The notes below the pieces were generated by a model, which was not told the origin of the DNA, searched no databases, and saw only the letters and a list, made by a program, of their open reading frames with translations. DNA of 32,143 nucleotides from assembly GCA_000613065.1 (NCBI GenBank), contig CBZS010000009.1:1-32143 (forward strand), given 5' to 3'. Shown one piece after another: positions 23,008 to 29,547 of this stretch. Position 1 is the first letter of the stretch; every line of letters starts with the position of its first letter. A program made the position numbers and the translations under genes. Source of the stretch: Richelia intracellularis (GTDB lineage: Bacteria > Cyanobacteriota > Cyanobacteriia > Cyanobacteriales > Nostocaceae).

Positions 23008-23496
23008 ATGCGAATAGGAAATGAACTCTGGCAAGGATATTTTGGTTACTGGCAAAACCGATTTATTCACCATAATATTTTGACTATTGGATACACCGCC
23101 TGGGATGGTTACATGAATGTAGGTAAGGGATGGGATGGTTACATGAATGTAGGTAAGGGAATGGTAGTTTGCGATGTTGTCGATGCAATCCCTCTCTTCA
23201 TAGATTGGAGTGTTGATGCGGTAACCTTCAATCAAGCATTCGTTCCTCAAGGGCAAGTAGTTTCGTATCTGCAAGCAATGGAGGTGAAGAAATATGTGGT
23301 AAGCGCACTGTATAAAGCGATCGCCACTTATGATCCCACCCAAGCAATAGTTATTCTGATTGTCGGTAACAGTACGGTAGATATCAACCTGCTACAAAAT
23401 CTAGGTATTCCCCTTGCTGAATGTTACAAGCAGGTACAGCAACGTCGGGTAGAATTTCAGCCTGCTCTAACTACTGTACCAAGGAGGGACTTATGA
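23008..23496 (+). CDS. Uncharacterised protein, first of a coupled paralogous pair
   Basis: A 162-residue protein of no family I recognise. It is related to the next gene over most of its length: IHHNILTIGYTAWDGY, the AFVPQGQVVSYLQAM region, ATYDPTQAIVILIVGNSTVDINLLQNLGIPLAECYKQV and a VEFQPA end all have counterparts. A perfect 30-bp tandem duplication adds WDGYMNVGKG a second time. No signal peptide or membrane segment is seen. The stop overlaps the next start as ATGA, implying coupled translation and a joint function. Confidence 0.6.
   Translation: MRIGNELWQGYFGYWQNRFIHHNILTIGYTAWDGYMNVGKGWDGYMNVGKGMVVCDVVDAIPLFIDWSVDAVTFNQAFVPQGQVVSYLQAMEVKKYVVSALYKAIATYDPTQAIVILIVGNSTVDINLLQNLGIPLAECYKQVQQRRVEFQPALTTVPRRDL
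23101..23160 (+). repeat. Perfect 30-bp tandem duplication inside a gene
   Basis: TGGGATGGTTACATGAATGT plus AGGTAAGGGA occurs twice with no mismatch at 23101-23130 and 23131-23160. It is frame-neutral and repeats ten residues. The paralogous neighbour has a single copy of the corresponding segment. Confidence 0.97.
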
Positions 23497-24050
23497 GTGA
23501 ATCTCCTAATACTCTGGACTGGCAGCAAGACTTTATAGCCACAAATTTATTAGCGATCGGTTACAATGCCTGGGTTGGGTATTCAAGCGGTGAACGCGGT
23601 GCGACCATTTGCAGTACTGATTCCCCTGCAATGCGGATTGCAGGGGAAACTTTCAAAAGCTATTTTGTACCCCGTTCTCGTTTACCCCCATTTTTGAATG
23701 TCTGGTTAGCAACTCCCGACACAGTTATTTTACGTCATCACTTTATGAATACCCATATTTTGGAAGCCGCAAATACCTATAATCCCGCAACTCAAGCCTT
23801 ACTATTACTGGAATCTTGCCACCAAACGACCTTCTTCTACTTAAAAAATTTGGGTTGCTGAATCAGGGGATGAATTAGCGTTTGAAACCATTGATAAATC
23901 GTTGAAAATGTAGTGAAATCATCCCCTGATTCAGCAACCCAAAAAAATTTACCCCTTACCCCACCCCAATGTTACGAACAGGTTTGCAAAGAGTGGACAG
24001 AATTTCAACCACAATCTACTCAATTATTGAAACAAAAACAATATGATTGA
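23493..24050 (+). pseudogene. Second paralogue of the pair, interrupted by a MITE-like element
   Basis: Starts at ATG 23493 after a strong AAGGAGGGAC and overlaps the upstream stop. The intact frame runs from MSESPNTLDWQQDF to FYLKNLG and then hits TGA at 23858-23860 supplied by the inserted element. Deleting 99 bases (element plus one target copy) restores FYLKNLPLTPPQCYEQVCKEWTEFQPQ and a stop at 24048. This restored tail aligns with the first paralogue (LQNLGIPLAECYKQV ... VEFQPA). As it stands the protein would lack about 35 C-terminal residues and may or may not work. Confidence 0.75.
23851..23941 (-). repeat. ~91-bp inverted-repeat (MITE-like) element, copy 3
   Basis: The ends TGGGTTGCTGAATCAGGGGA and TCCCCTGATTCAGCAACCCA are perfect inverted repeats. 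The core is the reverse complement of copies 1 and 2 (TGGTTTCAAACGCTAATTCATC read on the minus strand). An 8-9-bp target duplication AAAAAATT(T) flanks it at 23843-23850 and 23942-23949. It carries no gene. Confidence 0.92.
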
Positions 24051-24115: not shown

Positions 24116-24937
24116 ATGGATAGCAATTTATCTCAATTCAAGTCAGTTTCTCCTAGACCAAAAGTAATTATTTTTACTTCTATACTTCATCTGGCAGTAT
24201 TATTAGTATTCCTACCCCACACCTTTAGTTGGTCTGCTGTGGGGGTAGCGGTATTTTTACATTGGATAACCATTGGTCTGGGAATTTCTTTTGGTTTTCA
24301 TCGTTTGGCTGCCCATCGAAGCTTACAAACTCCCAAATGGTTAGAGTATTTTTTGATTTTGTGCGGTACTTTAGCTCTTCAAGGAGGAGTACTTGGCTGG
24401 GTGGGATATCACAGACTACATCATTTGTATTCTGATAGACAAGGAGACCCTCATAACTCCAACCAAGGATTTTGGTGGAGTCATATCAATTGGTTAATGC
24501 ATTCGGTTCCCATGAGAACTGAACTTTCCCGCTTCACCAAAGACATTGCCAACGACTCATTTTATCGTTTTTGTCATAGATATTATGTTGAACTACAAAT
24601 AGCCTTAGCCGTAATCCTATATTTTCTCGGTGGGTGGTCTTTTGTAATTTGGGGAATCTTTGTCCGTTTATTTGTAGGACTTCACTCTACTATGTTTGTC
24701 AATAGTGCTTGTCATATGCTTGGCTATCGTACTCATGATTCACAAGACCAGTCTACTAACTGTTGGTGGGTTGCTTTGCTAACTTTTGGAGAAGGTTGGC
24801 ATAATAATCATCATGCCTTTCAATATTCAGCCCGTCATGGTTTGCAATGGTGGGAAATTGATATGACTTGGATCACAATTAGATTACTGCAATTCCTCAG
24901 ATTAGCCACTAATGTCAAGACTATAGACCAGAAATAA
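24116..24937 (+). CDS. Membrane fatty acid desaturase, Delta9 (acyl-CoA/acyl-lipid) type
   Basis: A 273-residue di-iron desaturase that introduces a cis double bond into acyl chains. Histidine boxes are HRLAAH (residue 62), HRLHH (residue 99) and HNNHH (about residue 230), the set of DesC-like Delta9 enzymes. Four membrane segments surround them (residues 17-37, 40-60, 80-97 and 155-185). It is complete and has no stops. The CFA-synthase-like pseudogene begins 43 bases later on the same strand, so the two were probably one operon for modifying unsaturated acyl chains. Confidence 0.9.
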   Translation: MDSNLSQFKSVSPRPKVIIFTSILHLAVLLVFLPHTFSWSAVGVAVFLHWITIGLGISFGFHRLAAHRSLQTPKWLEYFLILCGTLALQGGVLGWVGYHRLHHLYSDRQGDPHNSNQGFWWSHINWLMHSVPMRTELSRFTKDIANDSFYRFCHRYYVELQIALAVILYFLGGWSFVIWGIFVRLFVGLHSTMFVNSACHMLGYRTHDSQDQSTNCWWVALLTFGEGWHNNHHAFQYSARHGLQWWEIDMTWITIRLLQFLRLATNVKTIDQK

Positions 24938-24980: not shown

Positions 24981-25610
24981 ATGACTCAAACCCAAGAGCC
25001 CCATCAACAACATAGAGAAATCATTACCCCATCAAGCCAGAATTGGAGCGTTCGCATTTCTAGTTTACCTAGTGGATAACCCTATCTCTACCAACTTTTT
25101 AGCTATATTCAAGAGGGAAATTTAACAGTCATGAACCCAGCAGGTATGGTTTTACATTTTGGTAGAGATGAATTGTCACCAGCTCTGCGGTTACGCATTC
25201 ATAATCCCCATACCTATGACCGTATTTTGGCATTTTTTGGCGCACTTGGGTTTTGTGAAGCCTACATGGATCAGTGATGGGATGAGGAAAATAATAATCT
25301 TGTTGAGTTCATTGGGTTGTTTTATCGTAGTAACGTATATTCAAAAGCAAATAAACGGGTAACAATTCCATTGCTGTTTAAGGTGATAACTCAACGGCTG
25401 AGAACAGTCCCGACTCGAATTCAAAATAGCCGCAATAATATACAGTATCACTACGATTTAGGCAATAATTTCTATCAGTTTTTTCTCGATCCAACTTTGA
25501 CCTATTCCTGTGGTTATCAGATGCGATAAACCGATTCCCTAGAACAGATGCAACTTCAGAAACACGAATCATCTCTCTTCTGTCACTATCCGGATATTAT
25601 CAATAAAAGA
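24981..25610 (+). pseudogene. Cyclopropane-fatty-acyl-phospholipid synthase-like gene, 5' part
   Basis: One continuous frame begins at ATG 24981 (MTQTQEPHQQHREI) and carries stops at 25077 (TAA), 25275 (TGA) and 25527 (TAA). Between them are recognisable pieces: PYLYQLFSYIQEGNLTV, LGFCEAYMDQ-stop-WDEEN, and [23 protein letters not shown] followed by DSLEQMQLQKH. These are landmarks of the CFA/SAM-methyltransferase family. The TGA falls where many relatives have tryptophan (DGWWD). The SAM-binding core that should follow is missing where the IS cluster begins. The 3' part is at 29116-29547. Confidence 0.8.
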
Positions 25611-25746
25611 ATAAAAAAATAAAACTCTGAAAGGAAAGTGGGGCAATGGATCTAGAGTTACAAATCCTGAAACATTTAGCAAGAGATGCTCACCCAACAA
25701 TTGCCATCATAGATGAATATTGTGCAGAGTATAAGGACTTATTTAA

Positions 25747-26660
25747 GAGGATGTTTTAAAAGTCGAAGTGAGTTACAAATCATGCAAGTCCCCTGACCAT
25801 GATACGTATCATTGGAATATAGATAAAAGTCTCAGAAGTTTCAGGTAGCCTTTCATAGTCCTTACTTAATCTTCTACACCAATTGAGCCACCCGAAAGTT
25901 CGTTCTACAACCCAACGTTTTGGTAAAAGGGTAAAACCCTTCTTTTTTAAGGGTCTGAGAACCACTTCCACAATCCAACGAAAAACATCGATTATCCAGT
26001 GGGCAAAATCTTCCCCCCGATATCCTCCATCCATCCAGATCGTGTGCAGTCTTTTAACTTTATCTTTCATCTGAGAAACCTACCAGAACGTTTAGTTTAG
26101 CCCCTGCACGTTCTGGCACACTTGCAGAAGCAACCAAGACTCGCAAAACTAGCCCTAACAAGTCAACCGTAATAAATCCCTTACGTCCATGTATTTGTTT
26201 TCCTGGGTGGAAACCAACATCCGTACAAATCATGGTTGCGGTTTCAACTCATTGGCTATCAAAGGCTGCTTCCGATGGACTTGGTTCTCGACTGGCTGCT
26301 ACCCGAACCCATTGATATAGTTTGTCATGAACCTGAAGCCAAGTACGGTCTTTGCGCCATCTTCTGAAATAGCCATAGACTGTAGACCAAGGTGGTAATC
26401 TCCTGGTAATGCCCGCCATGTACATCCTTGACACAGTAGGTATAAAATCGCGTTTACTACTGGGTACATACATGTTGTTGTACCTGGACGACCACCTGGT
26501 TTTGCCTCTGGTAACAGCTGTGGGATTAACTCCCACTGTTGCCACGTTAAATTGCTAGGATAATTCTTAGTCATTTGCTCACGGGGTGCTGTTTTCTATA
26601 ATTCTCAGCATATGCCTTGTCAGCTTTTTTATGATACCTCCCACCTTTTAAAACATCCTG
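25747..26660 (-). mobile_element. IS5-family element (914 bp) inserted in the IS701-like transposase
   Basis: Left end GAGGATGTTTTAAAAG and right end CTTTTAAAACATCCTG are inverted repeats (perfect AGGATGTTTTAAAAG core of 15 bp). TAA flanks both sides (25744-25746 and 26661-26663), the TNA-type target duplication typical of the IS1031 group. Deleting the element and one TAA restores the host frame. Confidence 0.9.
25780..26574 (-). pseudogene. IS5-family transposase, frameshifted
   Basis: Starts at MTKNYPSNLTWQQWELIPQL (ATG at 26574). After TWRALPGD the frame shifts to LPPWSTVYGYFRRWRKDRTW, continues to AAFDSQ, meets a TGA at 26249-26251, and goes on as GFHPGKQIHGRKGFITVDLLG. A second shift returns to the first frame at MKDKVKRLHTIWMDGGYRGE, then LLPKRWVVERTFGWLNWCRRL to the stop at 25780. 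The DDE-type regions are present but split. The element is intact at its ends but cannot encode a full transposase. Confidence 0.85.
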
Positions 26661-27949
26661 TAAGGAAGTAATACATTATGAGTGTTTCAAATATTTACAC
26701 TTAGAAATAATATCAACGATAAAAAGGAAATCATTACCAGAGATAGGGAAGGTAGTAAGTATAAACTCAGCCCAGTCATTACATCATTTCCTAGCTAATT
26801 CAGATTGGTCAGTAGATGAATTAAAACAACGAAGATTAAATAAACTTAAGCAAGTATTGAATGGTCAGGCGATTACAGTAGTAATAGATGAAACCGGAGA
26901 TATAAAAAAAGGTAAAAAGACTGATTCTGTAGCGAGACAATACTTAGGAAGTGTGGGAAAAGTTGATAATGGAATCGTTTCAGTCAATGCTTATGGAGTC
27001 TACCATAATATAACATTTCCATTAATCGTAAAAGTGTTTAAACCAGAAGGGACGTTAAAAGAAGGAGATAAATATAAAACTAAAAGAGAGTTAGCGTCAG
27101 AAATAATTACAGATTTAATTGAAGAGAACTTTAATATCGAATTAGTACTGGTAGATAGTTTATATGGTGAAAGTAGTCAATTTCTGAGAAAAGTAGATGA
27201 ATCGAACTTAGCTTATGTAGTTGCAATTAGAAGTAATCACGGAGTCTGGTTGCCATTAGGGCAAAGTGTTAGAGAAAACAAGTGGTGTAAATTTGAGAGA
27301 ACATTTAGTAATAAAAAATCATAAACTAGATACATTAGAGAAATAATTGATGGTAAAAAAAGAGTCATAACTTACTGGGAAATAACTAATGACCCAGAAA
27401 CGATGCCAGAAAATTCTACCTCCTTCGTAATGACGAATCTTCAAGGTAGTTTGAAAAAGACTTTAGGCAACTTATATGGATTCATAACCTGGGTCGAATA
27501 TGGGTTTCGTCAGTGTAAACAAGAATTAGGTTGGACAGATTATCCGTTTACACACTTTCAACATATTGAGAGGTGGTGGGAGATTATTTTTTGTGTTTAC
27601 ACGATGATTAGTTTGAATTCTCCAGCATTATTAGCCTTAAATCAATCTTGTCAAGTTAAGACTGAGCGGCAAATAAATAGTCATATTGATTTTTCTTATC
27701 ATCAACAATGGAATAATGAATGTGGATGGAAGAATGTTTTAAATAATCTGCGTCTAATCGTCCAACCACTTTTACTATTTTGGTTGATTTATCCCTCGAT
27801 TGATATTTTTCCTAATTCACAGTTCTTACTGGGATTCAATCATTTAATTGCTGCTATGAATCAATTCAAATCCTGTTATGTTTCTGGATGATTTAGCTCC
27901 TGAACTATTTGCTTATTTCGGAGAATGACAGAAAAAAAATGTACTTGAG

Positions 27950-28803
27950 ACGGCTACAAATTGGACTTTTTCAAATATCTGAAACTCGAGAGTCAATAAG
28001 CTGTTTAACTTCTTCTGCTTATCAGTATGAGCGGTAGCAATGCAGTTAGAGATTGCTGCCTTAAAATCTGCAAAATTAGCATATTACTTAGAGTATAAAC
28101 ATTCATTTATAAGAAATTTACAAAATCTTTCAATCAAATTTAATTGTGGAGAATCGCAAGGTAAATAACATAGTTGTATACCTACTGATATCGCATATTT
28201 ATGTACTAATTTACACTTCTGATATCTGGCATTATCTCGTACAATAACAATTGGTTTATTTAGCCCCAGATTAGCTAATTGAAATAACAACTGGCACAGA
28301 CTTTCTGAATTAATTTAAGTTTCATTTCTAATTGTAATTATTTCCTTAGTAACTGCATTAACTGCTCCTAAAACATTAAATCGTTTTCCACCGGAAGGTG
28401 AACAGATAAATGTTCTTGTAAAACACCATAAAAATCCTAAGTATGCTCGATGTACAAAGTGGGCTGCGTCAACAAAAAAAACTACTTACTTTCCGCTAAT
28501 AGCTTCTTCCAGTAATGCTAATAGCTTTTTTTGTCTATATTTTTATACCTCTTCAATCTTTTCTGGGTCTACTGACTTTCCCGGCACATACCCCACTTTT
28601 AAGCAACGCAAACCTGTTCTGAGCAGAAATTCTCTTACCTGAGTTGGACTGCGCTTAATACCAGTTATTTTTTCAATGGCATCACTCCCTTCTGCAATAC
28701 TTGTAGCTGGATGTTTCTCAAAATATTCTTTCAAAATATCACTATACTGATTTAATTCACTTGGCTCTCCTTTGTGGTGTATTTTTTTTAGTTCTTCTAC
28801 TCC
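27950..28803 (-). pseudogene. IS630-family transposase remnant
   Basis: One uninterrupted frame with four in-frame TAA codons (28543, 28486, 28315, 28084). In order it reads VEELKKIHHKGEPSELNQY, IEKITGIKRSPTQVREFLL (helix-turn-helix), VVFFVDAAHFVHRAYLGFLW, NKPIVIVRDNARYQ and LPCDSPQLNLIERFCKFL, followed after the stop by YANFADFKAAISN. The VDAAH, RDNA and PQLNLIE segments are the DDE residues of IS630. The extreme N-terminus is missing. No inverted repeats or TA duplication were found. Confidence 0.85.
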
Positions 28804-29115
28804 TCCTCATTGATATTGTTTAATGTAAACTATGAATTAATGTTGTTTTTTATATTTTACACAAACGACAAATATCTTTATGCTTTATACCCTGACTTTT
28901 TATATACATAAATTACATATTTTTCTGTACTAATGGATGATGATAATGATATCATTCAGAATGAAGTTTATCAATGTATTCTTGCGTAAAATCTATTTTT
29001 TACATCAGACTTTACCTGGTTTCTCAAGTAATATTGTTTATTAATTTATAATACTTGTTATTCCCGCTATAGAAAAGTCCAGCTTTTAACCGTTCTTAGT
29101 ATAACCCCCAATGGG
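28804..29115. other. AT-rich spacer between IS630 remnant and CFA 3' part
   Basis: About 300 bases, very AT-rich, with no supported gene or repeat. The open frame of the CFA 3' part can be followed back to about 29060 (LLTVLSITPNGVG), where family resemblance fades, so the original junction probably lies there. Confidence 0.4.
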
Positions 29116-29547
29116 GTGGGAATGTTACACACAATTGTCACTCAAAGTAATGAAAGAAACGGTGGTTGGAGTGCTAAATATATTTTTCCTGGTGGTTATG
29201 CACCACCACTTCATGAAGTGATTCAGGAGCTTTGGACAGCAAAACTACCAGTTGCCCATTGTGAGAATCTAAAGCCTCACTATGCGGAAACTATGAAGCG
29301 GTGAGCAATTAATTTTACAAATAACCAAGATAAAATTGCATCATTGGGAGCTACTTAAGATCAGCGTTTATTACGTATGTGGTATCTTTATTTGCAATCT
29401 TTTGAAGCTTCCTTTAGATATGGTAGCCTACAGGTTTATCAAAAATTATTTCATAAAGGAAAACAATGGCACTTAGATTTTCCTTTAACATTTAATCCGA
29501 TAGTTTCACTCAAAGGGAATGAAAATCAGATTTATACAAATCAGTAA
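29116..29547 (+). pseudogene. Cyclopropane-fatty-acyl-phospholipid synthase-like gene, 3' part
   Basis: A single frame of 144 codons with stops at 29302 (TGA) and 29356 (TAA) before the natural end TAA at 29545. It contains MLHTIVTQSN, YIFPGGYAPPLHEVIQELW, CENLKPHYAETMKR-stop-AINF, and RLLRMWYLYLQSFEASFRYG-SLQVYQ-LF. This is the C-terminal domain of CFA-type methyltransferases. It is in the same strand and order as the 5' part at 24981, so both are pieces of one gene split by ISs. Confidence 0.8.

Follow-up and report, generated by a model that had tools for sequence, protein, structure and literature searches.

Cyclopropane fatty acids have been reported from cyanobacteria, and in Moorea producens a marine species, the genes for cyclopropane fatty acid (CFA) synthases have been connected with lyngbyoic and majusculoic acids (PMC6213206). 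An excerpt of PMC6461809 reports that E. coli cfa yields cyclopropane acids in Synechocystis, so that cyanobacterial lipids allow cyclopropane formation, and describes cyclopropane chains as more resistant to oxidation than unsaturated ones. The formation of 10-methylstearate is attributed, in the accessible part of PMC5660069, to a CFA-like methyltransferase acting together with a flavin adenine dinucleotide (FAD) oxidoreductase. Here, we describe the remains of a CFA-synthase-type gene, lying directly behind an intact desaturase gene, in a 32,143-nucleotide stretch of the Richelia intracellularis genome (Nostocaceae; assembly GCA_000613065.1, contig CBZS010000009.1, positions 1 to 32,143 of the forward strand; hereafter, the window).

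An intact relative of this gene aligns to PDB entries 5Z9O (E 6e-73), 7QOS, and 6BQC across the catalytic motifs, sharing YSC, DIGCGWGG, FEHVG, and LHT/HGI with these solved CFA synthases over residues ~70-426; we take the structures to be those of the L. acidophilus, Aquifex, and E. coli (Cfa) enzymes, respectively. In contrast, the DIGCGWGG/FEHVG core is missing from the window copy, which also carries five stops, and the cyanobacterial group is further set apart from the solved enzymes in that it often adjoins its own desaturase. Like the Moorea producens genes, the window gene is a cyanobacterial gene of CFA-synthase type, a likeness drawn from description only; Moorea is absent from the 44 named loci considered below, and the excerpt of PMC6213206 does not mention desaturase pairing. 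With the 10-methylstearate pathway (PMC5660069, same excerpt) it would share a S-adenosylmethionine (SAM)-dependent change at the double bond of oleic acid, whereas no oxidoreductase recurs beside all of the cyanobacterial pairs (13 family loci, with neighbors partly annotated). Our data make it very probable that the window holds a recently inactivated CFA synthase gene from a conserved cyanobacterial two-gene cassette, in which it follows a desaturase gene that is still under selection.

Two collinear remnants of one CFA synthase gene

The first-pass annotation, made from the sequence by itself, had read positions 24981-25610 and 29116-29547 as the two ends of one CFA-synthase-like gene, split by a 3.5-kb cluster of insertion sequences (IS) and deprived of its SAM-binding core. 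Alignment to the intact relative L041 (genome G071) bears out the collinearity: residues 1-196 correspond to 24981-25571 (84% identity) and residues 299-433 to 29101-29505 (91% identity). Consistently, when the pieces were compared with 13 intact open reading frames (ORFs) of the family, the N-terminal piece reached residues 181-229 and the C-terminal piece started at residues 289-337 of the same ORF, and the two fragments do not align to different methyltransferases. Both pieces also exceed the curated cut-off of the CMAS profile (PF02353), scoring 72.6 and 49 bits (cut-off, 27 bits; intact relative, 296 bits) and covering profile positions 4-53 and 155-272 of 273. The two pieces are therefore the collinear ends of a single CFA-synthase-type gene. 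Their borders, on the other hand, had to be corrected to 25569 and 29102, where DNA homology to the CFA locus L024 (also of G071) ends and resumes; IS701-type sequence starts by ~25578, and the C-terminal piece begins 14 bp earlier than annotated.

Relative to L024, the window copy lacks 309 bp (103 codons, residues ~196-299) that carry DIGCGWGG and FEHVG; this stretch has been replaced by 3,532 bp (25570-29101), in agreement with the annotated core loss and IS cluster. The DIGCGWGG motif and E281 are invariant in 13/13 intact relatives; both are deleted here, whereas C176, H308, and Y359 are kept. From our reading of the alignment, C176, E281, H308, and Y359 presumably correspond to C139, E239, H266, and Y317 of the E. 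coli enzyme. At locus L034, Ala replaces the His beside the catalytic Glu (E281). In-frame stops occur at 25077 (TAA), 25275 (TGA), 25527 (TAA), 29302 (TGA), and 29356 (TAA); neither piece contains a frameshift, and the N-terminal piece is longer than that of L024 by one codon. With five stops and a 3.5-kb replacement, the reading frame is not continuous, and the gene is dead, a pseudogene arising from ordinary IS activity. A search of the genome returned no second intact CFA copy, the remaining matches being short methyltransferase-core stretches. An AlphaFold model of the CFA family was poor (pLDDT 48, 13 rows) and was set aside.

Table 1. Positions of the genes, gene remnants, and mobile elements of the CFA region in the window
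Feature	Position	Strand	Description
Two tandem small genes	23008-23861		Family without a name, ~150 aa
85-bp repeat	23854-23938		Resembles its own reverse complement
Desaturase	24116-24937	+	273 aa, intact; Delta9-type acyl-lipid desaturase, partner gene of the CFA cassette
CFA synthase 5' remnant	24981-25569	+	Residues 1 to ~196; 3 in-frame stops; YSC motif kept
IS701-type element	25578-27933	+	DDE_5 transposase, E 8.6e-22; end repeats TTCTGTCA/TGACAGAA; split by nested IS5-type element
IS5-type element	25748-26660	-	DUF4096 and DDE_Tnp_1_2 pieces (Pfam); inside the IS701-type element
IS630-type element	27942-29101	-	Transposase frame broken; DDE_3 piece at 28087-28290, minus strand, E 4.6e-10
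CFA synthase 3' remnant	29102-29547	+	Residues ~299 to end; 2 in-frame stops ahead of the terminal stop

Mobile elements in place of the catalytic core

Three mobile elements occupy the position of the missing core (Table 1). The element with the DDE_5 transposase we take to be of the IS701 family, and the one with the DDE_3 piece presumably belongs to IS630. The nested IS5-type element ends in a 15-bp perfect inverted repeat and is flanked by a 4-bp direct repeat, TAAG (25744-25747 and 26661-26664), as determined by alignment to L098, a full uninterrupted copy of the IS701-type element elsewhere in the genome. The IS630-type element, whose boundaries were set from genomic copies, is followed on the right by TA (29102-29103, adjoining the CFA remnant) and preceded on the left by TG (27940-27941), and among five other copies inspected TA stands on both sides in four and on the left side only in one. 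The IS701-type and IS630-type elements may have inserted separately into the CFA gene, and the DNA between the two insertions would then have been deleted as far as the left end of the IS630-type element, because TA remains on the right, the left reads TG, and most copies are bordered by TA at both ends.

All three elements are multicopy, with 28 genome matches for the IS701-type element (counting itself and fragments), at least 41 for the IS5-type element (40 of 129 candidates scored), and at least 41 for the IS630-type element (40 candidates scored), and the assembly of 5,488,377 bases is in 857 contigs; both circumstances would suit an artefact in which short reads were misjoined across the IS copies. 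We regard such an artefact as very improbable: the two sides prove to be the ends of one gene in their original order, an arrangement that would not arise from a random misjoin, the stops fall outside the repeats, and the missing core turned up nowhere else when the assembly was searched.

The desaturase-CFA pair in relatives

Among 145 genomes of the family, a search with the C-terminal piece identified the CFA gene in 14, including the genome of the window, and a search with the full protein added G105, whose copy runs off a contig end; after these, the closest full-length homologue shares only 37% identity (G004). The intact pair, which the first-pass annotation had proposed to look for, is found in relatives: 13/13 intact family loci have the desaturase immediately before the CFA gene in the same orientation, separated from it by 4-364 bp, and beyond the two genes no gene family occurs in more than six of the 13. 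In the window, the CFA start at 24981 likewise follows the desaturase in the same direction after a 43-base spacer. One of the 13 genomes, G085, is marked 38% contaminated and contains the pair twice.

The partner desaturase (71-92% identity) is present in 16 of the 145 genomes, and the best desaturase matches of the other genomes are at most 66% identical among the matches listed, and the few genomes not on that list score lower still. The CFA gene of these 16 genomes is intact in 13, a pseudogene in one (the window), contig-cut in one, and lost in one (G043); conversely, all 15 genomes with an orthologous CFA gene (at least 74% identity) also have the partner desaturase. A desaturase whose CFA partner is missing outright was thus met once, in G043, the only other genome of the window's genus in the set. 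In this 3.2-Mb genome, alignment with the window spans the desaturase and the spacer 3' of it and stops at the base preceding the CFA start, past which only a 52-bp stretch, a weak remnant, resembles the CFA gene. Its score was reached by none of 500 dinucleotide shuffles for L024 and L030, and by 5, 9, 80, and 140 of 500 for L025, L026, L032, and L031, respectively; a translated comparison of the remnant to CFA was not significant. The CFA gene of G043 appears to be lost and nearly erased.

A scan of named genomes with exact peptide patterns, in which absence is only suggestive, yielded 44 CFA loci, 42 of which contain most of the CFA gene or a contig-cut part of it. Two of the 42 (L050 and L065) have <100 bp upstream; the other 40 have >1 kb. 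A DesC-type partner immediately precedes the CFA gene in the same orientation in 23 of these 40 and is on the opposite strand in one (L082), and a DesA-like desaturase takes the place of the partner in two (L060 and L061). The latter were missed by tblastn with the window desaturase; L060 was the locus used for the family search, and L061 belongs to the same cluster.

Selection on the desaturase and timing of CFA decay

The desaturase had been annotated as intact, which agrees with its match to PF00487 (FA_desaturase; E 4e-19), and it is 92% identical to the orthologue beside the intact CFA gene of G071. Four histidine boxes (HRLAAHRS, YHRLHH, HSTMFVNSACH, and GEGWHNNHHA) were assigned by eye, with small differences, against the motifs given in an excerpt of PMC4390868. 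It shares these four boxes with the cyanobacterial DesC1/DesC2 enzymes of that excerpt (third box, HSTMFVNSACH in the window versus HFTWFVNSATH), whereas the window-type desaturases are phylogenetically distinct: 27 rows, including the window and G043, form one clade, and 15 other DesC proteins from the same family of genomes form another (SH-aLRT 100 each). Desaturase and CFA distances correlate across 22 loci (Mantel r 0.85, p 0.0001). The ratio of nonsynonymous to synonymous divergence (dN/dS) of the desaturase is 0.07-0.13 in pairs with the window (n = 7).

Window-only changes fall on the three codon positions as 17/10/41 for the CFA pieces (68 changes, taken only from sites at which L024, L025, and L030 agree) and as 20/4/44 for the desaturase (Fisher p 0.72). 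Comparison of codon positions gave no significant sign of relaxed selection on the CFA pieces (p 0.72 and p 0.46). Nonsense changes in the CFA pieces show no excess either (5 observed versus 3.5 expected of 68 if all were neutral; p 0.28). Because the codon-position pattern does not differ from that of the desaturase, which we read as constraint over most of the branch, the death of the CFA gene looks recent.

Proposed function and order of loss

The paired desaturase would put a cis double bond into membrane acyl chains, and the CFA enzyme, judging from its homologues, would bind SAM and add a methylene across that double bond. More tentatively, and with some doubt on our part, we propose that the dedicated DesC-clade desaturase and the CFA synthase, joined at some loci by one or two CcmS-fold proteins upstream, may form an undescribed cassette for a cyclopropane or methyl-branched membrane lipid in a range of cyanobacteria, and that this cassette may have been lost stepwise as diatom-symbiotic Richelia went from an external to an internal life with its host, the CFA synthase being given up first and the desaturase retained for a use of its own. 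Among the matches listed from the open-licence literature, we found no description of the desaturase-CFA pair and no relevant paper on either Calothrix cyclopropane lipids or Richelia desaturases.

According to excerpts of two reports, the genomes of Richelia RintRC01 and RintHH01 measure 5.48 Mbp and 3.24 Mbp (PMC8776783), and RintRC01 is a periplasmic and RintHH01 a cytoplasmic endobiont, Calothrix rhizosoleniae SC01 being facultative (PMC12596568). The CFA gene would accordingly be whole in the facultative symbiont (G023), IS-broken in the periplasmic one (the window), and nearly erased in the internal one (G043); provided that the three genomes are correctly assigned, the sequence in which the function was lost can be read from them. 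Loss of the CFA gene would fit genome reduction in a diatom symbiont. The pseudogene itself is an unremarkable case of decay in a genome rich in IS elements. It draws attention to a conserved, little-studied pair that could affect the way membranes withstand light and oxygen, given the greater resistance of cyclopropane chains to oxidation, and the named relatives with intact pairs, among them the culturable Calothrix parasitica NIES-267 and Plectonema LEGE 06105, are strains in which the lipid can be sought.

Instead of forming rings, the CFA-type enzyme could be a methyltransferase for mid-chain methyl branches (e.g., those of 7-/8-methylheptadecane). Its superfamily fits such a role, and the two enzymes would make a double bond and then modify it; Coates et al. 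2014 (PMC3903477, as excerpted) name vaccenic acid as the probable precursor of methylheptadecane and describe the enzyme responsible, a SAM-dependent methyltransferase, as unidentified. Moreover, Calothrix, a branched-alkane maker by a reference title in PMC5642901, accounts for four of the 44 named loci (L041, L049, L051, and L076). However, Nostoc/Anabaena, Nodularia, Aphanizomenon, Gloeobacter, Fischerella, Chlorogloeopsis, and Planktothrix (taken from the excerpts of PMC3903477 and PMC5642901) account for 0/44 in this pattern-based and hence suggestive scan, and the partly annotated neighbors at the 13 family loci include no conserved oxidoreductase family, one being needed for 10-methylstearate (PMC5660069, as excerpted). 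We consider a branch-forming role unlikely and retain the cyclopropane reaction as the working assignment.

Observations weighing against the proposed functional pair and its recent loss

Several of our results count against the reading given above. At 14 of the 40 named loci, no desaturase was found in the examined flank, as in Leptolyngbya PCC 7375 (tblastn; part of the neighbors scanned by Pfam), so the desaturase-CFA link is not obligatory. Between L024 and L030 (G071 and G023), the desaturases differ by a synonymous divergence (dS) of 0.065 and the CFA genes by a dS of 0.53, i.e., they have different histories; this mismatch is a sign of recombination within the pair, and the two genes can therefore part. 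These two observations, together with the retention of the desaturase without CFA in G043, would also be expected if the genes were adjacent through shared transfer only, with no biochemical link between them. That explanation is, in our judgment, distinctly unlikely in view of (i) the co-occurrence in 15 of 16 family genomes, counting the window pseudogene and the cut copy; (ii) the same-strand adjacency at all 13 intact family loci; and (iii) the different desaturase found at the same position in L060 and L061.

The preferred reading, that of a functional desaturase-CFA cassette, has further points to accommodate. The desaturase dN/dS is 0.04-0.10 in all seven pairs with G043, where CFA is absent, so that the gene persists under constraint; because purifying selection is maintained both here and in G043 without CFA, the desaturase keeps a role of its own beyond CFA supply. 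The first-pass proposal of a lost acyl-chain modification pathway consequently stands for the CFA step and for the pairing in relatives, but not for a desaturase serving CFA alone. The desaturase has outlived its partner, and monounsaturation alone would benefit the cell, since the desaturase is still under selection. In addition, the CFA reaction is one that we infer from homology; the five nonsense changes also fit a longer neutral period; no target repeat for the IS701-type element was found, leaving the bases on either side of it (25570-25577 and 27934-27941) unassigned; and the order of insertions and deletion is likewise a reconstruction.

Upstream genes and further CFA loci

The tandem pair of small genes preceding the desaturase (Table 1) has counterparts in 11 of the 44 named CFA loci. 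The predicted structure of a relative (pLDDT 85) suggests a CcmS-like fold, with a Foldseek match to 9iur (E 9e-6) and a Z score of 8.6 to 8zlh (rmsd 4.3, 120 aligned, 17% identity), fold matches below Z 5 being disregarded; at the sequence level, no match was found for the small protein. CcmS is a carboxysome chaperone by the title of PMC11635287. The second small gene looks damaged, because the 85-bp repeat sits where its 3' end has been lost relative to L024; this repeat has at least 40 genomic occurrences, 40 of its 656 candidate matches having been scored.

Three named loci may represent further CFA losses. Stretches of 49 CFA residues that look like remnants were found at L083:4001-4147 and L084:4001-4147, in a Scytonema and a Rhizonema metagenome-assembled genome (MAG), and in a Leptolyngbyaceae MAG the CFA gene is read in two frames (L079, near 4798), which could reflect loss or a sequencing error. 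At three other loci, the CFA gene is succeeded by another methyltransferase gene, of 280-329 aa (L060:5289-6131, L061 from 5291, and L050 from 1471).

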